Assembly (NCBI GenBank): GCA_028698335.1
Contig: JAQVDP010000017.1
Location: 1 to 64,000 of the forward strand
Source of the DNA: Nevskiales bacterium
Lineage (GTDB): Bacteria > Pseudomonadota > Gammaproteobacteria > Nevskiales > Nevskiaceae
Length of the DNA: 64,000 nucleotides
Direction of reading: 5' to 3'
Shown: piece by piece, positions 31,169-58,419 of the stretch
How the letters are laid out: every line of letters begins with the position of its first letter
Position numbering within the stretch: the stretch's first letter is position 1
Made by a program: the position numbers and the translations under genes
The notes under the pieces: generated by a model
What the model was told of the DNA's origin: nothing
The model's input: only the letters and a program-made list of their open reading frames with translations
The model's database searches: none

Positions 31169-32068
31169 TCAGTGCGCGCCGGGGAGTCGCACCAGCAGGA
31201 CGCTCTTGGGTTCGAAGCGGGCGATGGCCTTGCGCCCGGCGCGCAGGGTGGACGCCGCGGTGTCGTCGACGACCGCGGTGATCGAGCGGCCGCCGGGCAG
31301 ATCGATGATGACCTCGCTGCGTCCGCCTTCCTGGCTGCAGCGCGCGATCGTGCCGGCCAGCCGGTTCGGCGCGTCGTCGCTGCCGCGGGTGTCGGCTTCG
31401 ACGCGCACCGCGACGGCCTTGACCAGCACGGCGACGTCGATGCCCGGTTGCACGCCCAGGCGTCGCGCGCTGTCAGTGGTGATGTGGGCGACGATATGCA
31501 GCCGGGCGTCCAGCGCGATCTCGACCTCGGTGCGCACGCGGTCGGCGCGGACGGCGCTGATCGTACCGACCCAGTGGTTGCGCGCGCTGGTCTGCAGCGA
31601 GAAGCGCTGCAGCAGGCGCTGATACTCGGCCAGCGCCGTGCCGCTGCCGCCGACCTTCTCGTTGAGCAGCGTCAGCGCCTGCTGGTATTCCTGTTCGATC
31701 GCGCGGACCAGCGCGACCACGCGCTTGCCGTAGTCGGTCAGATGCGTGCCGCCGCCCCGGCGGCCGCCCGGGGTGCGGGCGACCAGGGCCTCGTCGGCCT
31801 GGTTGTTCATGGTGTCGATCGCATCCCAGGCGCCCTTGTAGCTCATGCCGACGGCCTTGGCGGCCTGGCTGATCGAGCCGTGAAGATCGACCGCTTCGAG
31901 CAGGTCGATGCGCCCGGCGACGAGGAACGGCGCGCCGTTCTTTTCGACCAGCAGGCTGCCGCGATAGGTCGACGGCGCCCCGCCGGCGGTGTTGCCGGCG
32001 GGACGGGTGCGCGCCGCGGCCTTGCGGGCCGGGCGGGCAGGCGGTTTCGGAGTCGGTTTGCGAGGCAT
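31169..32068 (-). CDS. modE: Molybdate-responsive transcriptional regulator ModE
   Basis: ModE binds DNA when loaded with molybdate. The 299-residue protein has a basic Ala/Pro-rich N-terminal extension of about 33 residues and a winged helix-turn-helix (SISQAAKAVGMSYKGAWDAIDTMNN). Two molbindin (TOBE) domains follow; the first has the signature SARNHWVGTIS. The extension is longer than in E. coli ModE. Candidate operators lie at 34225-34242 and 34531-34548, and a third at 55240-55257. Confidence 0.94.
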   Translation of the reverse strand: MPRKPTPKPPARPARKAAARTRPAGNTAGGAPSTYRGSLLVEKNGAPFLVAGRIDLLEAVDLHGSISQAAKAVGMSYKGAWDAIDTMNNQADEALVARTPGGRRGGGTHLTDYGKRVVALVRAIEQEYQQALTLLNEKVGGSGTALAEYQRLLQRFSLQTSARNHWVGTISAVRADRVRTEVEIALDARLHIVAHITTDSARRLGVQPGIDVAVLVKAVAVRVEADTRGSDDAPNRLAGTIARCSQEGGRSEVIIDLPGGRSITAVVDDTAASTLRAGRKAIARFEPKSVLLVRLPGAH

Positions 32069-32118: not shown

Positions 32119-34185
32119 CTACAACGCCGCCTCGATGCGCAGGGAGTAGCTGCGCCCCGGTTCCGGATAGCCCTCGCTGTAGGCGTAGCGCCGGTCGGTC
32201 AGGTTGTGCGCGCCGAGGCTGAGGCTGTAGGCCTGGCCGAAACGGTAGCGCGTGGAAACGCCGAATACGGCGAAGCCGGCGGCCCGCTGCGACCCGTCGC
32301 TCGACGAATAGCGTCCGGACATCGCATCGGCGTTGGCGCTGAGCGACCAGCTCGGGGTCGCGTGCCAGCGCAGCGACGCGAAGCCCTGGTGGCGCGGTGC
32401 GTCGGTCAGCCGGATGCCGGGGTCGGAGCGGTTGCTGCGGTCCAGATAGCTGTAGTTCAGGACGTAGTCGAGTGTCTGCCAGCCGCCGTGCAGCCCCATA
32501 TCCACGCCCTGCGCGCGGACCTTGCCCACATTCTGCTGTTGCGAACACGGCGGGCTGCTGCAGGCATCGTCGCTGATCCGGACCTGCTGGATCAGGTCGT
32601 CGATATTGCTGTAGTAGACCGCGATGTCGGCATGCAGCGTGTCGCCGATCTGGGTCATGTAGCCGAGCTCGAAATGATCGGCGGTCTCGCTGCTCAGGGC
32701 TTCGTTCGGGATCGCGGTGCCGAGCCGGTACGAGTAGCGGTCCTTGATCGTCGGGAAGCGGTTGCGATGTGAATAGGTCGCCCGCAGCCGCGTGTCGGCT
32801 GCCGGTTCGTAGAACACGCCGAGCTGTCCGCTGAGCGCGTCGTTGTCGCTGCGCGCGAAGTCGACGATCGCGCCGCTGCCGTCGTCGTAGTCCTCGGCCT
32901 GCAGGCTCTGGCGCGCTTCGTGGGCCAGTCCGCTGACCAGCGACCAGCCCGGTGCCAGAACCTGCGTGTCCTCGGCCGCGAGCGTCCAGGTGCGGTCCTT
33001 GAAGTGGCGGATCGGCTCGCCGGCGTCGTGCTCGCGGTGCACGTCCTCCTTCCAGGTCGCGGCCAGGCGCAGGCGGTTGCCGGCGGTGACCTGAAGTCCG
33101 GCCTCCACCGCCGCGCCGTTGCTGTAGTCGTCGTACCAGCTGCGGAACGCGTACGGCCGGGTGATGCTGGTGTAGGTCGCGTCGTCGTAGGAGTACAGCG
33201 AGTTCTCGAAGGTGTCGTGGTAGGCACGGACCTTCAACTCGTGCGCGCCGAAGACGGTGCGGGTCATCAGATACGCACTCTGCTTGTCCCAATACGGCCA
33301 GCGCCAGTAGCGCGCACGCACGCCGTCGACACTGCCGGCGTAGGGCGGTGTGCCCTTGTCGCCATCCTGGCGGTTGTAGCCGAGTACGTATTCATCGCCG
33401 TCGCGCGGGGTCCAGCCGAGCTTCAGCGAGATGCGACGGTCGGTCGAGTCGCTGTTGTCGCGATCGTCCCCGTCCTCGACGGCGGTCGGCGCGTAGTCGC
33501 CGGGCAGGTCGTAGTGATCCTGGTCGCGATAGGCGACGCCGAGCTGGCCGTACCACTGGCCCTGGCGGCTGCCGAGGTTGGCGTAGAGGTTGTGGCGGAT
33601 CGCGTCGCCGTCGTCGCTGAAATCCTGTTGCGCGCCGGCGTCGATCTCGAGCGCCGCGGTCGGCCGGCGGCTGATCAGGTTGATCGCGCCGCCCAGCGTA
33701 TTGGCGCCGTAGATCAGCGAGCCGAAGCCGCGGGCGATGTCGATGCGCGCGAGATCGGCGGTGGTGAAGCGGCCGAGGTCGACATAGCCGTCATAGGGGA
33801 CGTAGACCGGGAGGCCGTCGATGAACAGCGGGACCTGACGCAGGTCGAAGCCGCGGATGTAGGCGACTTCCTCGTTGCGCGCACCGACGCGCCCCACGTA
33901 GACGCCGGGCGCGAGGCTGACCGCGGCGCCGACGGTCTGCCGGTCCTCGGCGCGGATCTGATCGATGCCGAGCTGAACCTGGCTGTCGGTGTCGAGGTCG
34001 GGACGGGTGCCCTCGACCTCGATGCTGCCGAGCGTGAACACCGGATCGGCGGCATCGTCGGCGCGGGCGTCCGCATGCGCCAGGGCCGAGGCGGCTGCCA
34101 GTATCGCGGCGGCGTGGAGGCGGAGGGGGCGTCGCGCCGAAGTCTGCGGCCGGTGCATCGGGGATGGAGCGTGCATGGATCTCAT
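32119..34185 (-). CDS. TonB-dependent outer-membrane receptor, candidate molybdenum uptake receptor
   Basis: The 688-residue protein has a signal peptide (cleavage near ADARA|DD), a TonB-dependent plug domain (AAVSLAPGVYVGRVGARNEEVAYIRGF, YGANTLGGAINLISRRP) and a beta-barrel. It ends in the aromatic-flanked C-terminus of outer-membrane proteins. Such receptors import siderophores or other chelates using TonB energy. It is divergent from modABC across a ModE-type operator at 34225-34242 and is followed 51 bases later by modE. This suggests that it imports a molybdenum (or tungsten) chelate; that substrate is inference. Starts at 34176 or 34158 are possible alternatives. Confidence 0.88.
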   Translation of the reverse strand: MRSMHAPSPMHRPQTSARRPLRLHAAAILAAASALAHADARADDAADPVFTLGSIEVEGTRPDLDTDSQVQLGIDQIRAEDRQTVGAAVSLAPGVYVGRVGARNEEVAYIRGFDLRQVPLFIDGLPVYVPYDGYVDLGRFTTADLARIDIARGFGSLIYGANTLGGAINLISRRPTAALEIDAGAQQDFSDDGDAIRHNLYANLGSRQGQWYGQLGVAYRDQDHYDLPGDYAPTAVEDGDDRDNSDSTDRRISLKLGWTPRDGDEYVLGYNRQDGDKGTPPYAGSVDGVRARYWRWPYWDKQSAYLMTRTVFGAHELKVRAYHDTFENSLYSYDDATYTSITRPYAFRSWYDDYSNGAAVEAGLQVTAGNRLRLAATWKEDVHREHDAGEPIRHFKDRTWTLAAEDTQVLAPGWSLVSGLAHEARQSLQAEDYDDGSGAIVDFARSDNDALSGQLGVFYEPAADTRLRATYSHRNRFPTIKDRYSYRLGTAIPNEALSSETADHFELGYMTQIGDTLHADIAVYYSNIDDLIQQVRISDDACSSPPCSQQQNVGKVRAQGVDMGLHGGWQTLDYVLNYSYLDRSNRSDPGIRLTDAPRHQGFASLRWHATPSWSLSANADAMSGRYSSSDGSQRAAGFAVFGVSTRYRFGQAYSLSLGAHNLTDRRYAYSEGYPEPGRSYSLRIEAAL

Positions 34186-34224: not shown

Positions 34225-34242
34225 TATATAGTCAACTATATA
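34225..34242. promoter_or_regulatory. ModE operator, TonB-receptor side
   Basis: TATATA-GTCAAC-TATATA matches the ModE consensus of two TATATA half-sites separated by about 6 bases. It lies 40 bases upstream of the TonB receptor start in otherwise GC-rich DNA. Binding of Mo-ModE here would repress the receptor-modE-lysR unit when molybdate is plentiful. Confidence 0.8.
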
Positions 34243-34530
34243 GATAGATGCTCAAGCAACCATGGTGCCAATCGGCGGCGAAGGGGGCGGGGTGTGTGCT
34301 CCGGATTCCGAAAAAGCCTTTCCGGTCGGGCGCGATGCGGGGCCGCCGCCGTGACCGGACGATCGCCGGGAGTCGCGATGGCCGCGCGAATAGAGCCGCC
34401 TCGGCGCGGTGTATGTCGCAAAGCGGACAATTCGCACACTTCCGGCCGGTGATCCGTCGCGGCGCGCGCCGCAGCGTCGGCGGTGCGGCGCTGGCACCGT
34501 CCTTGCGTTGACGTCGGTACCGTCAACCGT

Positions 34531-34548
34531 TATGTAGTCAACATGATA
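34531..34548. promoter_or_regulatory. ModE-like operator, modA side
   Basis: TATGTA-GTCAAC-ATGATA is a degenerate ModE site flanked by CGT on the left and TCG on the right, giving CGnTAT-type half-sites. It shares the central GTCAAC with the site at 34225. It covers the ATG at 34543, which argues that modA translation begins downstream at GTG 34576. Confidence 0.65.
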
Positions 34549-34575
34549 TCGAGCATTCGTGAAGGTCGGACCGAG

Positions 34576-35358
34576 GTGCGGGGGCGGCGACGGTCGCCGC
34601 TGCTGCGGCTGGCGACGTTGCTGCTGGGGCTGGGGATGGCCTGGGCGGCGTCGGCCGAAGCGCCGGTGCGCGTGTTCGCCGCCGCCAGCCTCAAGGACGC
34701 CATGGACGAGGTGGCCGCGGCCTGGGCCGACGCCAGCGGCCAGCGCGCGCTGGTCACCTACGCGGCGACCAGCACGCTGGCGCGCCAGATCGAGCAGGGC
34801 GCGCCGGTGGATCTGTTCGTGTCGGCGAACCAGCGCTGGATGGACTATGTCGCCGAACGCAAACGGGTCCGGGCGGACAGCATCCGGCCGTTGCTCCGCA
34901 ACGCGCTGGTGCTGGTCGCGCCGGCGGATTCGGCGACGGCACTGGAGATCGCGCCGGGCTTCGACCTGCTCGGCGCCCTCGGTGGCGGCCGACTGGCGAT
35001 CTGCAACCCGGCGGTGCCGGCGGGCAGCTACGGCCGCCAGGCGCTGCAATCCCTCGGGGTCTGGGATGCGCTCCGGACCCATGTGGTGCTGGCCGAGAAC
35101 GTACGCGCGGCGCTGCGGCTGGTGTCGCGGGGTGAAATGCCGCTGGGCGTGGTCTACGCCTCGGATGCCGTCGCCGATCCGCAGGTCCGCGTCGTCGACG
35201 TGTTTCCGCAGGACAGCCACGAGGCCATCGTCTATCCCGCGGCGCTGATCGACGGATCCCGCCATCCGCAGGCGCGGGCGCTGCTCGATTACCTTGGCGG
35301 CGCGAGCGCGCAGGCGGTATTCGAGCGCTGGGGCTTCGCCCCCGCGGCGGCGCGCTGA
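34576..35358 (+). CDS. modA: Molybdate ABC transporter substrate-binding protein ModA
   Basis: ModA binds molybdate in the periplasm and delivers it to ModBC. The product (260 residues from GTG 34576) has a signal peptide (RGRRRSPLLRLATLLLGLG, cleavage near ASA|EA). It shows the ModA motifs FAAASLKDAMDEV, ATSTLARQIEQGAPVDLFVSAN and VPAGSYGRQAL. GTG 34576 is preferred: GAAGG lies 10 bases upstream, the n-region is normal and the ATG at 34543 sits inside a ModE operator. ATG 34543 would add 11 residues. Confidence 0.92.
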   Translation: MRGRRRSPLLRLATLLLGLGMAWAASAEAPVRVFAAASLKDAMDEVAAAWADASGQRALVTYAATSTLARQIEQGAPVDLFVSANQRWMDYVAERKRVRADSIRPLLRNALVLVAPADSATALEIAPGFDLLGALGGGRLAICNPAVPAGSYGRQALQSLGVWDALRTHVVLAENVRAALRLVSRGEMPLGVVYASDAVADPQVRVVDVFPQDSHEAIVYPAALIDGSRHPQARALLDYLGGASAQAVFERWGFAPAAAR

Positions 35359-35371
35359 CAGTGGACGCCCG

Positions 35372-36061
35372 GTGCTGAGTCCGGACGAGTGGACCGCGCT
35401 GGCGCTGTCGTTGCGGGTCGCGGCGGTGGCGGTGCTGGCAAGCCTTCCGCTGGCGGTGCTGGCGGCGTATCTGCTGGCGCGCTGGCGCTTCCCCGGTATC
35501 GCGATCGTCGACGGGCTGATCCATCTGCCGTTGACGCTGCCGCCGGTGGTCACCGGTTATCTGCTGCTGCTGCTGTTCGGCACGCAGGGGCCGCTCGGAC
35601 GCTTTCTGTCGGAACAGCTTGGCGTGGTGCTCGCGTTTCGCTGGACCGGCGCGGCGCTGGCCGCGGCGGTGATGGGGTTTCCGCTGATGGTGCGATCGAT
35701 CCGCCTGTCGCTGGAGGCGGTCGACCCGCGACTGGAGGAAGCGGCGGCGACACTCGGTGCGCGGCCGTTGTGGGTGTTCGCGACGGTGACGCTGCCGCTG
35801 ATCGGGCCGGGCATCGTTTCGGGGATGATCCTGGCGTTTGCGCGGGCGATGGGCGAGTTCGGCGCCACCATCACCTTCGTGTCCAACATTCCGGGTGAGA
35901 CGCAGACGCTGGCCAGCGCCATCTACACCTACACCCAGGTTCCCGGCGCCGACGCGCAGGCGCTGCGCCTGACCGCGGTTGCGGTCGCGGTGTCGATGGT
36001 CGCGCTGGTGGCGTCCGAGTGGCTGGCGCGCCGCGGTCGCCGCCGGGTGGCGGGGCTATGA
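35372..36061 (+). CDS. modB: Molybdate ABC transporter permease ModB
   Basis: This inner-membrane permease of the molybdate importer has 229 residues, the same length as E. coli ModB. It has about five transmembrane helices and the cytoplasmic EAA-loop EEAAATLGARPLWVFATVTLPLIGPGI that docks ModC. GTG 35372 is the start that gives family length; it is 13 bases after modA. It overlaps modC by 4 bases. Confidence 0.93.
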   Translation: MLSPDEWTALALSLRVAAVAVLASLPLAVLAAYLLARWRFPGIAIVDGLIHLPLTLPPVVTGYLLLLLFGTQGPLGRFLSEQLGVVLAFRWTGAALAAAVMGFPLMVRSIRLSLEAVDPRLEEAAATLGARPLWVFATVTLPLIGPGIVSGMILAFARAMGEFGATITFVSNIPGETQTLASAIYTYTQVPGADAQALRLTAVAVAVSMVALVASEWLARRGRRRVAGL

Positions 36062-37146
36062 GCCTGCAGGTCGAGATCGTCCACCGTCAGGGCAGCTTCG
36101 AGCTGCGCGGCGGCTTCGATGCGCCTCAGGGGCTGACGGCACTGTTCGGTCCGTCGGGTTCAGGCAAGACCACCCTGGTCCGTGCGATCGCCGGACTGCT
36201 GAAACCGCAGCAGGCCCGCATCGCGGTGGACGGCGCGGTGCTCGTCGATACCGCCGCCGGCCTGTGCCTGCCGGCACACCGGCGCCGCATCGGCTATGTG
36301 TTCCAGGAGCCGCGCCTGTTTCCGCATTTCACCGTGCGCCAGAACCTCGGCTACGGACGCTGGTTCGCGGGTGAGGCAAAGGCGGCGGACGATGCGCGGC
36401 TGATCGATCTGCTCGACATCGGGCCGCTGCTGGCGCGCTATCCCGGGCGCCTGTCCGGCGGCGAACGCCAGCGCGTGGCGATCGGACGCGCGCTGCTCAG
36501 CGCACCGCGCCTGCTGCTGATGGACGAACCGCTGAGCCAGGTCGATGCGGTGCGCAAGGCCGAGATCCTGCCGTACATCGAACGCCTGCGTGACGAACTC
36601 CGGATCCCCATCGTCTATGTCAGCCACGCGCTGGACGAGGTCGTGCGCCTGGCGGGGCACCTGGTCTGTCTGTCTCAGGGCGGCTTCGTCGCGGCCGGGC
36701 CGACCGCGGAGGTCCTGACCCGCACCGACCTGACGATGTTCGCGCAGCGACCGGATGCCGGTGCCGTGGTCGCGGCGACGGTGCGGCGGCACGATCCCGA
36801 ATACCGGCTGACCGAACTGGCCTGTGCCGCGGGTTCGCTGTGGGTGCCGCAGCTCGGGCACGCCGTGGGCAGCCCGGTCCGGGTCTGGGTCCGCGCGCAG
36901 GACGTGACGCTGGCGCTGCAACCGCCGCGGGAGGTCAGCGCGCTGAACGTGCTGACCGGCACGATCGCGTCGATCGGCCATGCCGATCCGAGCACCGCGA
37001 TGGTGGCGGTGGACTGCGGCGGCGTGACGCTGCTGGCGCGCGTCACCCATTTTTCCGTCGACCGTCTGCAACTCCGCGCCGGATTGCCGGTCCATGCGCT
37101 GGTCAAATCCGTCAGCTTTCCGATCGCCGGACACGCGATGAGTTGA
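36058..37146 (+). CDS. modC: Molybdate ABC transporter ATP-binding protein ModC
   Basis: This ATPase of the molybdate importer has 362 residues, with Walker A GPSGSGKTT (residues about 32-40), Q-loop FQEPRLFPH, signature LSGGERQRVAIGRALL and Walker B LLLMDEPLSQVD. A C-terminal molbindin/TOBE domain (SALNVLTGTIASIG) is typical of ModC. Its start overlaps the modB stop, completing a modABC operon. Confidence 0.95.
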   Translation: MSLQVEIVHRQGSFELRGGFDAPQGLTALFGPSGSGKTTLVRAIAGLLKPQQARIAVDGAVLVDTAAGLCLPAHRRRIGYVFQEPRLFPHFTVRQNLGYGRWFAGEAKAADDARLIDLLDIGPLLARYPGRLSGGERQRVAIGRALLSAPRLLLMDEPLSQVDAVRKAEILPYIERLRDELRIPIVYVSHALDEVVRLAGHLVCLSQGGFVAAGPTAEVLTRTDLTMFAQRPDAGAVVAATVRRHDPEYRLTELACAAGSLWVPQLGHAVGSPVRVWVRAQDVTLALQPPREVSALNVLTGTIASIGHADPSTAMVAVDCGGVTLLARVTHFSVDRLQLRAGLPVHALVKSVSFPIAGHAMS

Positions 37147-54270: not shown

Positions 54271-55059
54271 GTGAGCCAGGAATGCAACAGGCCGCAGCCG
54301 CGCGACCCGCTGCGCAGCGGAGACGATTGGATCGGTCACCAGCGTCTGCGCTGGCTGTTCGACGCGGCCGGTTTCGACGTCCTGCCGGTTCGCGAGCACG
54401 AAGCCGCGTCGGCGCGCGGCGCGGTGCAGGAGATGAACAACCTCGCCGGTGAGCCGCTGGCCGAATGGCTCGAAGGCGACATCGGCTGCGGAATCCGCCT
54501 GACCGCCCGCGGACGCCGGCTGTCGGTGGCCCTGAGCGTGGTGCGCGAAGCGGAGGCCCGGCTGCTCGAGGAGTTCGGCGGCAGCTTCGCCGACGACCTG
54601 CGTCTGCTCGACCGCGTCACCGTCAGGACCAGTGCCCGCAACCAGTTCTTCGCGCGGGTCGAGACGCTGTCCGGAGGGGCCCTGCAGGACCACGTCGTCC
54701 TGCGCCTGCCGAGCGGACATCGCATCGTCGCGCTGATCACGCGCAGCAGCGTCGAGGCGCTCGCACTCGGGCCCGGCATCGACGTGGTGGCGCTGATCAA
54801 GGCGCCGTCGATGCGGGTCGTGAGCGCGGAGGGCCAGGCGCAGCCGCCGCAGTCCGTCGGCGGCGAGGTCAACGCCCTGGACGGCGTGGTCCGCAGCATG
54901 AGCCGGGATGACTGCTACACCGAGGTGCTGGTCGACATCGGTGCGGATCTGAGCGCGGTCGCGGTGGCGGCGACTGCCGAGATGCCGCCTATCGGTATCG
55001 GACAGCAGGTCTGGCTGCGCTTCTCGACGGCGTCGGTCATCGTCGGCGTTCCGGCCTGA
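54271..55059 (+). CDS. ModE-like protein with a diverged DNA-binding domain
   Basis: The 262-residue protein (GTG 54271, GAGGGG upstream) aligns in layout with ModE. A winged-HTH-like N-terminal domain has lost the usual recognition helix sequence but keeps the MNN-x-AG-x-PL and LTARGRRL features. Two molbindin/TOBE domains follow, the first starting SARNQFFARVETLS. It may bind molybdate but is unlikely to bind the standard ModE site. It lies 17 bases after nifA on the same strand, so it is probably coexpressed with it. Confidence 0.78.
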   Translation: MSQECNRPQPRDPLRSGDDWIGHQRLRWLFDAAGFDVLPVREHEAASARGAVQEMNNLAGEPLAEWLEGDIGCGIRLTARGRRLSVALSVVREAEARLLEEFGGSFADDLRLLDRVTVRTSARNQFFARVETLSGGALQDHVVLRLPSGHRIVALITRSSVEALALGPGIDVVALIKAPSMRVVSAEGQAQPPQSVGGEVNALDGVVRSMSRDDCYTEVLVDIGADLSAVAVAATAEMPPIGIGQQVWLRFSTASVIVGVPA

Positions 55060-55215
55060 GGTCGGCGCCGGCCGCGTGACGGCGGCTTTCCCAGATATCG
55101 TTATGTGACGGGCTTCCGACAAAGCCGACATCGGATCACGCGCCGTGAGCCGGACCGATTCTGCCGTCATCCGATTAATCTAACAAAAACAATATCCTGA
55201 AGATCGGGTCGGTCC

Positions 55216-55231
55216 TGGCATGCTCCGTGCG
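55216..55231 (+). promoter_or_regulatory. Weak sigma-54 promoter candidate
   Basis: TGGCATGCTCCGTGCG has GG at 55217-55218 and GC at 55229-55230 with 10-base spacing, but the -12 is GTGC rather than TTGC. It is immediately followed by the ModE-type box, which would overlap the transcription start. Confidence 0.4.
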
Positions 55232-55239
55232 ATAAGCGC

Positions 55240-55257
55240 TATATAGCGTAATATATA
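55240..55257. promoter_or_regulatory. ModE operator upstream of the periplasmic redox unit
   Basis: TATATA-GCGTAA-TATATA has the same half-sites and 6-base spacing as the operator at 34225-34242 and is flanked by CGC on the left and AACG on the right, as in the ModE consensus. It lies 61 bases before the GTG of the next gene. Molybdate repression or activation of that gene is predicted. Confidence 0.72.
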
Positions 55258-55317
55258 TAAACGTGGCTTCGTGCCGCGTGTTCCGAGCCGAGTCGAGACC
55301 CCCTCAGGAGTGATGCC

Positions 55318-55860
55318 GTGCCGATCCGATTCCCCTTGTCCATTCGCCGCAGCGCGGTTGCCGTCGTCGTCGGGTGCTGCCTCCATGGCGCGCCGGCGCT
55401 GGCCGATGATGCCTGTGACGGCTTTCGTGCCGAGTTCGCGTCGACGCGGACGCAGTACGCCGGTGACGCGCAGACGTTGCAGGCGGGGAGCGACGTCGAG
55501 TCGGCGCCGACGGTCATGCCCGGGCGGCCTTATGCGCTGGCGCTGTCGCCGCTGTCCGGGGTGACGCTGGCGGCTGCGCCGGGCAAGCCGATGCTGCCCG
55601 ACGGTGCCGCCGGCGGCATGGTGCGGTTCGAAGTGCCGGAAGCGGGTGGCTATCACGTCGCGATCGGCAGCAATCACTGGATCGACATCGTCGACTCCGG
55701 GACGCTGATCGCGTCCAGGGATTTTCAGGGAGTGTTCGGGTGCTCGGCCCCGCACAAGGTCGTGGTCTACGAACTGCCCGCCGGCCGCGAGCTGGTGTTG
55801 CAGTTCAGCGGCAGCCCGACGGATGCGACGCGCCTGCTGATCAAGGCCGCGACGCCATGA
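55318..55860 (+). CDS. Secreted protein of unknown function, Mo-box-preceded
   Basis: The 180-residue product (GTG 55318, AGGAG 7 bases upstream) has a signal peptide cleaved near ALA|DD. The mature domain is beta-rich, with VRFEVPEAGGYHVAIGSNHWIDIVDSG and a lone Cys in GVFGCSAPHK. His and Cys residues might bind metal, but no family motif is recognised. It is translationally coupled (ATGA) to the di-haem protein gene and preceded by a ModE-type operator. Confidence 0.75.
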   Translation: MPIRFPLSIRRSAVAVVVGCCLHGAPALADDACDGFRAEFASTRTQYAGDAQTLQAGSDVESAPTVMPGRPYALALSPLSGVTLAAAPGKPMLPDGAAGGMVRFEVPEAGGYHVAIGSNHWIDIVDSGTLIASRDFQGVFGCSAPHKVVVYELPAGRELVLQFSGSPTDATRLLIKAATP

Positions 55861-57224
55861 CGGCGGCCCGTGCCCGGCACCGGTCACGGTGGGCGTCGGC
55901 GGCCGCGTGTCTGCTGTCGGTGTCGGCGGCCGCCGCCGGCGGATCCGCGGAAGGACCGGGCGATGTGTCGTTCGCGGCGGTCCGCGTCGCGGCACAGACC
56001 CGGTTCGAGCCGGTGGCGTATGCCGCGCTCGACGGCGACCAGCAGCGGCGCTACGCGCTCGGTCTGGCGGTCTTCAACACGCATTGGGTCGCCGCCGGGA
56101 CCGCGCAGGCCGCGCGCATCGACGGTGTCGGTCCGCTGCACAACGCGCCGTCCTGTGACGCCTGCCACAACAGCGGTGCGCGCGGCCGTGGTCCCGAGGG
56201 GGATGGTGCGCTGCCGATCGGCCTGGTGATCGCGGTGTCGCCGGCTGGGTCGGCGGGGCCTCATCCGCGCTACGGCCATGTGCTCAACCCGTCGGGCCTG
56301 GATCGGGTTCCGGCCGAGGCGCAGCTGCGGGTGCGCTATCGCATGCTGGAGGGGCGCTATCCGGACGGCGCCCGGTGGCAGCTGCGGGATCCGCGGTATC
56401 TCGTCGAGGCGCCGGGCTATGGCGCACTCGCGGACGATACCGTGCTCAAGCCGCGGCTTGCGCCGGCGCTGTTCGGTGCCGGCCTGCTCGAGCGCGTGCC
56501 GGTCGACTGGCTGCGGCGGCGCGAGGCGCGCAATGCCGAGCGGACCGACGGCGTACGCGGGCGGATCGCCTGGCGCGAATTCGACGGGCGGAAGATGCCG
56601 GGACGCTTCGACTGGCAGGGCGACGCGGTCTCGGTCGCTAACCAGACCGGGCGTGCGTTCGCGCGGGAAATGGGCCTGAGCAATCCGCTGCAGCCCGCCG
56701 ACGACTGCACCGCGACGCAGGCGGCGTGCCGGAAGGCCGCATCCGGCGGCAGCCCCGAAGTCGATCCGCAGTTGTTTGCCGCGGTCGAGGCCTTCCAGCG
56801 CTGGCTCGCGGTACCGGCGGTCGCGCGCGACGGCGGGATCGAGGCGGACGGAGCGGCGCTGTTCACGGCCACCGGCTGTGCCGACTGCCACGTGCCGGCG
56901 CTGCCGGTCGAGATCGATGGCGCCGGCCCGGCGCAGCTGCCCGCGTACTCGGACCTGCTGGTGCACGACCTCGGGTCCGGACTGGCCGATCGCGATCTGC
57001 GCGGGCAGGCGGTTCCCGGCGCCTGGCGAACCGCGCCGCTGTGGGGCTTGGGCTACGCCGTGCAGCGCGGCGGCGCGCTAGGCCTGCTGCACGACGGCCG
57101 CGCCCGCTCGGTCGAGGAGGCGATCCTCTGGCACGGCGGCGAGGCAGCCGCGGCGCAGGCGCGCTTTGTCGCGTCGACGCCCGGGCAGCGTGCGCTGCTG
57201 CTGCGCTGGTTGGAGACGCGCTAG
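55857..57224 (+). CDS. Di-haem c-type protein (DUF1111, putative thiol oxidoreductase/peroxidase)
   Basis: The 455-residue protein has a signal peptide and two haem c motifs: CDACH within VGPLHNAPSCDACHNSG (about residue 102) and CADCH near residue 343. It matches the DUF1111/COG3488 di-haem family by the VGPLHNAPSCDACH and SNPLQPADDCT segments. Members are proposed periplasmic oxidoreductases with unknown substrates. It overlaps the secreted protein gene by 4 bases, so the two form one unit near Mo-binding proteins inside the nif island. Confidence 0.85.
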   Translation: MTAARARHRSRWASAAACLLSVSAAAAGGSAEGPGDVSFAAVRVAAQTRFEPVAYAALDGDQQRRYALGLAVFNTHWVAAGTAQAARIDGVGPLHNAPSCDACHNSGARGRGPEGDGALPIGLVIAVSPAGSAGPHPRYGHVLNPSGLDRVPAEAQLRVRYRMLEGRYPDGARWQLRDPRYLVEAPGYGALADDTVLKPRLAPALFGAGLLERVPVDWLRRREARNAERTDGVRGRIAWREFDGRKMPGRFDWQGDAVSVANQTGRAFAREMGLSNPLQPADDCTATQAACRKAASGGSPEVDPQLFAAVEAFQRWLAVPAVARDGGIEADGAALFTATGCADCHVPALPVEIDGAGPAQLPAYSDLLVHDLGSGLADRDLRGQAVPGAWRTAPLWGLGYAVQRGGALGLLHDGRARSVEEAILWHGGEAAAAQARFVASTPGQRALLLRWLETR

Positions 57225-57282
57225 CAGCGGGAGGGTGCGGACCGGGCGGCGCCTTCATCCGGCGGCGCCGCCCGGAACGGCC

Positions 57283-57489
57283 TCATTTGCCGACGATCAC
57301 GTCCGAGGATTTGACGATGGCGGTGACGGTGTCGCCGACCTTCAGGTCGAGGTCCTCGGCCGCGTCGTTGGTGATCGACGAGGTCAGATGGATCCCGTGG
57401 CCGACGTCGATGTGCACGGTCGTCGTGACCGCGCCCTTGGTGATCTTCTCGATCTTGCCCTTGAGGGCGTTGCGTGCGCTGAGTTTCAT
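57283..57489 (-). CDS. mop: Molbindin (Mop), molybdate-binding protein
   Basis: Molbindins oligomerise and bind molybdate in the cytoplasm as a buffer or store. The 68-residue protein is a single TOBE domain (SARNALKGKIEKITKGAVTTTVHIDVG...VIVGK) with the signature SARN. ATG 57489 gives standard length. It is convergent with the di-haem gene and has its own sigma-54 promoter at 57524-57539. In nitrogen fixers such proteins help store molybdenum for cofactor synthesis. Confidence 0.93.
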   Translation of the reverse strand: MKLSARNALKGKIEKITKGAVTTTVHIDVGHGIHLTSSITNDAAEDLDLKVGDTVTAIVKSSDVIVGK

Positions 57490-58375: not shown

Positions 58376-58419
58376 TCGCGACGACTATAAAAAAACAAAT
58401 AAAAACAATACATAAAAGA

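Follow-up and report, generated by a model that had tools for sequence, protein, structure and literature searches.

In the methanobactin and copper loci, the small secreted protein MbnP and the di-haem enzyme MbnH (TIGR04052, TIGR04039) are encoded together, often near a TonB receptor, according to a passage in PMC3621798, and DUF1111 proteins are treated together with imelysins and iron in a part of PMC3143127. For molybdenum (Mo), a remark in a genome paper (PMC4465626) states that a TonB receptor adjoins modG, modE/G and modA1B1C1, and a passage on A. vinelandii mentions TonB receptors that depend on VnfA1 and share operons with putative ATP-binding cassette (ABC) components (PMC9542535). 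The present analysis concerns a stretch of 64,000 nucleotides from a Nevskiales bacterium (assembly GCA_028698335.1, contig JAQVDP010000017.1, positions 1 to 64,000), hereafter called the window, in which a small secreted protein of an unnamed family (S180) and a di-haem c protein of the DUF1111 family (DHOR) are encoded behind a ModE-type operator (Table 1). No description of an S180-DHOR unit was found in the open literature searched, mostly at the level of search results. We propose, with a probability of about 60%, that this unit represents the periplasmic half, and a TonB-dependent receptor encoded elsewhere in the window the outer-membrane half, of a ModE-controlled TonB-dependent Mo-acquisition system.

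The unit resembles MbnP/MbnH in composition and in the superfold of the enzyme, but neither S180 nor DHOR matches TIGR04052 or TIGR04039 at E values up to 1, and the regulator signature and linked genes of the window unit point to Mo. The two models find another pair in the same genome, over both cut-offs (contig C42, 76431-78436); thus the S180-DHOR and MbnP/MbnH systems coexist in this genome. As a preliminary description of the window had noted, the signal-peptide protein is coupled to the protein with two CxxCH motifs by an ATGA overlap of stop and start codons (55857-55860); S180 itself starts at a GTG codon (55318), with AGGAG 6 bases before it. The DUF1111 identity given there was borne out by a match of DHOR to PF06537 well above the cut-off (E = 7.4e-40; 137.3 bits, cut-off 22) and by CxxCH motifs at residues 100-104 and 341-345. 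The overall fold predicted for DHOR is that of MauG and bacterial cytochrome c peroxidase. His426 stands at the likely sixth-ligand place of the second haem when 14 residues are counted from the His of the HDG motif, as in BccP, HMMER itself being gapped there; this ligand is presumably a Tyr in MauG and the aligned Met in BccP. S180, on the other hand, matched nothing in Pfam at E values up to 1 and nothing in NCBIfam or PDB; its predicted fold is a beta-sandwich resembling collagen-binding/PPC domains. In an alignment of 29 of 34 S180 sequences (all but L125, L129, L133, L137 and L138), C33, W121, D123 and C142 were identical in all 29 rows and K147 in 28.

To score operators, 24-mers were compared with the palindrome CGnTATATA-N6-TATATAnCG (maximum of 16 positions), which we take to be the ModE operator consensus. 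The operator ahead of S180 is the top-scoring 24-mer of the whole window, and its core (55240-55257; TATATAGCGTAATATATA) is an exact TATATA-N6-TATATA. The preliminary description had pointed out a box of equal geometry at 34225; both boxes are indeed exact, and the 4.3 Mb assembly contains no further exact copy. With up to 3 mismatches, the window contains 9 matches vs. 0.09 expected, mostly shifted registers of these two boxes, and one at 58386. A whole-genome scan with 1 mismatch found one further site (on C42), whereas the control, i.e., the pattern read backwards, gave 4 matches at up to 1 mismatch; therefore, weight can be given only to exact matches and to position. A simple sigma-70 scan of 55050-57300 found no promoter. 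Operator shape and regulator are those of the ModE regulon, from which the window differs in that the operator precedes a TonB receptor and the S180-DHOR operon.

A single-sequence search found S180 in 6 of 61 genomes (its own and relatives), all of one family (f1), which is probably Nevskiaceae, judging from Hydrocarboniphaga and Nevskia rows located close to it in the DHOR tree. A profile found S180 in 25 of 398 Pseudomonadota and, within the class, in 1 of 369 genomes, its own genome being counted in each. A DHOR-profile scan of named genomes confirmed 561 stretches, of which the 80 best were kept. S180 adjoins DHOR in eight of these 80 (L015, L016, L017, L019, L020 from a Nevskia metagenome-assembled genome (MAG), L021 from Luteimonas, L022 from H. 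effusa and L035 from an Alcanivorax MAG); these eight, the window and five relatives (L007-L011) make up the 14 pair loci. Genes of the relatives were called with a home-made codon-position score, and their starts, and hence the box-to-start distances, are approximate. A receptor homologue lies beside the pair in 9 of the 13 related loci, on the same strand in seven (L007, L008, L010, L011, L020, where the frame is in two pieces, L021 and L035) and convergent to it in two (L022 and L017, the latter partial, with 27% identity); the fetched stretches of the other four (L009, L015, L016 and L019, the last of just 4.6 kb) contained no receptor. In the window, the receptor is located 21 kb from the pair, behind its own box. 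As the receptor adjoins the pair in most related loci, we regard the window as a split form of a receptor-S180-DHOR system, and the tie to the TonB receptor suspected earlier from box geometry is real. The genome of L009 (G001) shows the same split, with a receptor homologue elsewhere behind its own box (L171; 42% over 439 residues) and a box at modA as well. The locus remarked on in PMC4465626 is similar in that a TonB receptor lies beside mod genes, and that passage mentions no S180, DHOR or ModE box. In genome G253 (L122), the order is ModE-receptor-S180, and PF06537 has no match anywhere in the genome. Short ModE-type frames (approx. 130-190 amino acids) adjoin the system at L017, L019, L035 and L122; as their matches cover the DNA-binding domain only, a regulator without Mop domains may serve these loci.

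Box ranks were determined for 18 S180-system promoters (those of the 14 pair loci and of G253, and the separate receptor promoters in the window, L021 and L022), for seven operons in which a solute-binding protein (SBP) takes the place of S180, and for 10 of 19 S180 loci outside the class. Sixteen of the 18 S180-system promoters have, at most 400 bp away, a best site of 12-15/16 that ranks among the top three of its locus. Counted by locus, a palindrome scoring at least 12/16 lies upstream of S180 or of the receptor in 12 of the 14 pair loci, and a ModE gene lies directly upstream in the other two (L008 and L020). The seven SBP-type operons had best sites of 11-15/16, among the best four of the locus. 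Outside the class, one of the 10 S180 promoters scored (L136) has such a site (12/16), and the other nine scored 8-10, a level that 10 to 219 windows of the same locus reach equally well. When six whole genomes were scanned with the 24-mer, one position being relaxed to R and at most 2 mismatches tolerated, each genome yielded 1-5 forward sites, as compared to 0 or 1 for the reversed control. These sites correspond to 12 loci (a count that leaves out the G005 sites C9:73696, C9:94809 and C11:169290), of which four are the S180 systems themselves (G000, G005, G006, G007). Among the eight others, five match modA, modB or modC (L164 and L172 in G001, L167 in G006, L168 in G007 and, with 29-34% identity, L170 in G005), two match a TonB receptor (L171 and, weakly, with 33% over 136 residues, L161 in G012) and one (L169) holds nothing recognised. 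As the palindrome is common to mod genes in four kin genomes, we consider it a predicted ModE operator, to which ModE would bind.

The SBP (mostly 400-450 amino acids) precedes DHOR at L032, L042 (Dyella), L044, L054, L061 (Methylophaga), L065 (Pseudothauera) and L070 (Azomonas); it was identified with Pfam at L032, L042, L065 and L070, and by alignment with these at L044, L054 and L061. ModA directly follows DHOR at L061 (Methylophaga lonarensis; 307 bits, cut-off 264), modE and mod-type ABC genes precede DHOR at L065, and an NMT1-type binding protein follows DHOR at L070. In a DHOR tree of 85 rows (84 loci and the window; L062 gave no DHOR), the 14 S180-linked rows are found on one side of a branch (support 100/98), together with two S180-free rows (L018 and L023). 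A larger group of 28 rows (97/96) joins the S180-linked rows and the seven SBP-linked rows, and also holds L028 (ABC genes), L036, L048 (RCC1 gene), L085 and L086; the other 57 rows lie across the branch from this group. A second DHOR in the window's own genome (C16:156967-158457) matches PF06537 much more strongly than the DHOR of the window (643 bits).

A same-strand gene was called upstream of DHOR in 75 of the 84 loci; clustering of these partners gave a largest cluster of 36 members, and imelysin was found in both members scanned (L027 and L085). The unit could be imagined as an iron system like the imelysin (PF09375)-DHOR loci, in which PF06537 likewise stands beside a periplasmic partner, located near Mo genes by chance. 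L085 falls within the 28-row group, and the window receptor has matches, none of them reaching its cut-off, to general models of siderophore, haem and B12 receptors; DUF1111 and imelysin-type proteins are found in loci implicated in iron uptake, according to the relevant part of PMC3143127. However, the partner is S180 in the window and an SBP elsewhere, window-type loci carry ModE-type boxes, which recur at these operons in many genomes and are common to mod genes, and the DHORs linked to S180 or an SBP fall into a group separate from the 57 others, the DHORs of imelysin loci being mostly in another tree group. In addition, genomes that lack DHOR have S180 next to modABC or a tupA-like gene. 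We consider chance proximity of an iron system highly improbable. The three partners scanned among the 57 rows were imelysin (L027), a multicopper oxidase (L055) and a ferritin-like protein (L059), of which the latter two suggest further DHOR partner types.

A profile built from 13 receptors, and thus a search not chosen through DHOR, found 9 of the 398 Pseudomonadota at E ≤ 1e-100, two of them already known (the window and G253) and seven new. A Mo signature (a box of at least 12/16 and/or ModE, modABC or ModD) was observed in five of the seven new receptor loci. The receptor is found with ModE, modABC and a 12/16 site at L154, in the order site (14)-receptor-SBP-DHOR at L155, with a BtuC-like permease, a 14/16 site and a ModE gene in divergent orientation at L156, and with a binding protein weakly resembling BtuF and a 12/16 site at L158. 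L160 has a 16/16 site approx. 4.4 kb upstream of the receptor; the intervening stretch encodes a BtuC-like permease and ModD (390 bits, cut-off 179), and the closest gene called in this run is 1.1 kb away from the site. The receptor boxes of L154 and L156 sit inside the longest frame, before the called start.

At L156, L157, L158 and L160, this receptor subfamily is accompanied by BtuC/BtuF/BtuD-like ABC genes (all matches below cut-offs), a second architecture that may carry the whole Mo complex across the inner membrane. A comparable case is MolBC-A, reportedly a BtuCD-type molybdate ABC importer, from which the window differs in that no BtuC-type ABC was recognised by eye beside its unit. 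As BtuC-type importers are the kind that moves whole complexes and no DHOR was seen at these four loci, the Mo complex might be imported whole, with the S180-DHOR pair only storing, sensing or protecting (e.g., by peroxide removal) and releasing no Mo. An ABC ATPase-type match is located a few kb from the pair in L010 and L011. By eye (no systematic search was made), however, the window unit has no such ABC set next to it, modABC is found beside the receptor, and ModA follows DHOR in L061; a pair without any part in Mo release is, in our assessment, unlikely.

Outside the class, S180 was found in 20 stretches from 19 survey genomes, one of them G253, and 19 loci were counted; weaker matches (G274, G088, G301, G289 and G315) were left out. 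We infer that most of these genomes are alphaproteobacteria. S180 lies beside a mop, modABC or tupA-like gene in 8 of the 19 loci, i.e., beside modABC (by BLAST) at L124, L127, L131 and L138, beside Mop at L126, L136 and L139 as well as at L127 and L131, and beside a TupA-like gene at L132 (246 bits, cut-off 400). In this setting, the S180 homologues represent an unannotated secreted companion of molybdate/tungstate importers. Among the 16 of 19 fetched survey genomes tested (all but G115, G183 and G231), 12 had no PF06537 match, including all seven behind the eight Mo-linked loci. The TupA-like neighbour at L132 would fit a system for another oxyanion (tungstate), to which ModE-type proteins also respond, or for thiomolybdate, a sulfur-containing form of Mo, which DHOR would oxidise. 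As molybdate-type genes make up most of the linked ones (modA of the window and of L061, both over the cut-off, ModD in L160, and the modABC genes just listed), we regard such a cargo as very unlikely.

The most interesting alternative is a maturation similar to that of MbnP/MbnH, in which DHOR would oxidise an S180 side chain (e.g., Trp121) to build a metal site and the modified S180 would be the Mo carrier; a change of Trp to kynurenine presumably occurs in MbnP- and CorA/MopE-type proteins. However, Trp121 is equally invariant in the S180s of genomes with no PF06537 match, which makes such a change less likely. Moreover, the second haem is aligned with His where BccP has Met, and other ModE-linked loci pair DHOR with an SBP and show no S180 signal. 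Overall, these data make a maturation role of DHOR quite unlikely.

Several observations weigh against the proposed Mo-acquisition system. S180 is rare near the organism of the window, where only its own genome carries it among the 369 sampled of the class, and the 24-mer scan of this genome found 1 site vs. 1 for the reversed control. The promoters of L008 and L020 (score 8), each with a ModE gene directly upstream, lack a box of the kind found in the other pair loci, and two of the seven new receptor loci have no clear box, i.e., L157, where genes weakly resembling BtuF and BtuD are found and the best site (11/16) is directly upstream, and L159, a short contig with the order SBP-DHOR-receptor and no site above 10/16. 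L085 brings an imelysin partner into the 28-row DHOR group, and DHOR is absent from the 12 S180-bearing genomes mentioned above and from the ModE-receptor-S180 operon of G253, which indicates that S180 can act without it. Finally, no Mo gene is found beside S180 in 11 of the 19 loci outside the class; six of these belong to one genus (L125, L128, L129, L130, L133 and L137, near DoxX, glyoxalase and MTTB-type genes), and the others are L134 (GGT, TauE), L135 (HlyD-type), L141 (GlpX), L123 and L140. A wide occurrence away from Mo genes and ModE boxes, which according to the preliminary description would speak against a Mo role, was not seen for the pair; S180 alone has no visible Mo neighbour at these 11 loci.

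The comparison of loci supports well a link of the S180-DHOR unit to Mo, and acquisition of molybdenum (or tungsten) is very probable. The preliminary description had proposed a Mo-responsive periplasmic redox system, of which the Mo link stands and the reduction or release of Mo is a matter of interpretation: release or capture from an imported complex in the periplasm seems reasonably likely, while redox release by DHOR is a tentative idea. When Mo is scarce, ModE would leave both boxes and both units would be expressed, as ModE biology leads one to expect. The receptor would import into the periplasm a Mo complex (a chelate or some other species that exceeds the size limit of porins), S180 or the SBP would bind the complex or the freed oxyanion, and a redox step of DHOR on the ligand or the metal may free molybdate to ModA, ModABC being the presumed taker. 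At receptor loci with BtuC-like genes, the complex may be taken in intact. It is possible, if somewhat doubtful, that these loci represent one undescribed system, i.e., a TonB receptor under ModE control with interchangeable periplasmic modules (S180 or SBP), each with a DHOR that chemically releases molybdate for ModABC from a complex brought in by the receptor.

Table 1. Features of the window discussed in the text (coordinates in the window)
Feature	Position	Strand	Basis or remark
ModE-type operator CGCTATATA-N6-TATATATAA	55237..55260		approx. 70 bp before S180 start; 14/16 consensus positions
Second exact ModE-type box TATATAGTCAACTATATA	34225..34242		between TonB receptor and modA; 12/16 consensus positions
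S180, 180-amino-acid secreted protein, unnamed family	55318..55860	+	reading frame, profile and structure comparisons
DHOR (PF06537, DUF1111), 455-amino-acid di-haem c protein	55857..57224	+	profile, haem motifs, predicted fold
TonB-dependent receptor	32119..34185	-	PF07715 (plug) and PF00593 (barrel) above cut-off
ModE (helix-turn-helix + Mop/TOBE)	31169..32068	-	adjoins receptor; presumed regulator of both boxes
modA, modB, modC (molybdate ABC importer)	34483..37146	+	ModA over NCBIfam cut-off; ModB, ModC by frames and place
Mop-domain ModE-like protein	54271..55059	+	just downstream of nifA-like frame
Mop (molbindin), 68 amino acids	57283..57489	-	profile match

Judged from its profile matches, the protein next to the receptor is likely the ModE of this genome (HTH_1 34 bits, cut-off 26.6; Mop 79 bits, cut-off 55), its score against the ModE DNA-binding model (92 bits) being slightly below the cut-off of 98.5; a second, shorter ModE-type frame is located on C44. 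The preliminary description had placed the S180-DHOR unit between a ModE-like protein and a molbindin. While the latter was recovered, the former (54271-55059; Mop/TOBE 72 bits, cut-off 55) shows a degenerate ModE N-terminus with no recognised DNA-binding domain, and as it reaches only 15 bits against the same ModE model, it is probably not a DNA-binding ModE. nifH is found on the same contig (72026), 8 kb past the end of the window. Among the 14 genomes with receptor and/or S180, nifH is over its cut-off in 2 (G000 and G223), so that a special tie to nitrogen fixation is not supported. A xanthine-dehydrogenase-type Mo hydroxylase is located near the system at L007, with homologues at L017 by clustering. 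Given the nifH count and these hydroxylase genes, we infer that the system serves Mo need generally rather than nitrogen fixation specifically.

Nitrogen fixation and other Mo enzymes are limited by the supply of Mo; in our judgement, little is known about how bacteria bring bound or scarce Mo across the outer membrane. The loci described here define a receptor subfamily and bring it together with an unnamed family of periplasmic proteins and a di-haem enzyme under a common regulatory signature, and the question therefore becomes testable in named isolates such as Hydrocarboniphaga effusa for the S180 type, and Azomonas agilis, Methylophaga lonarensis and Dyella amyloliquefaciens for the SBP type. 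To our knowledge, they also offer the first substrate lead for a branch of the DUF1111 family.
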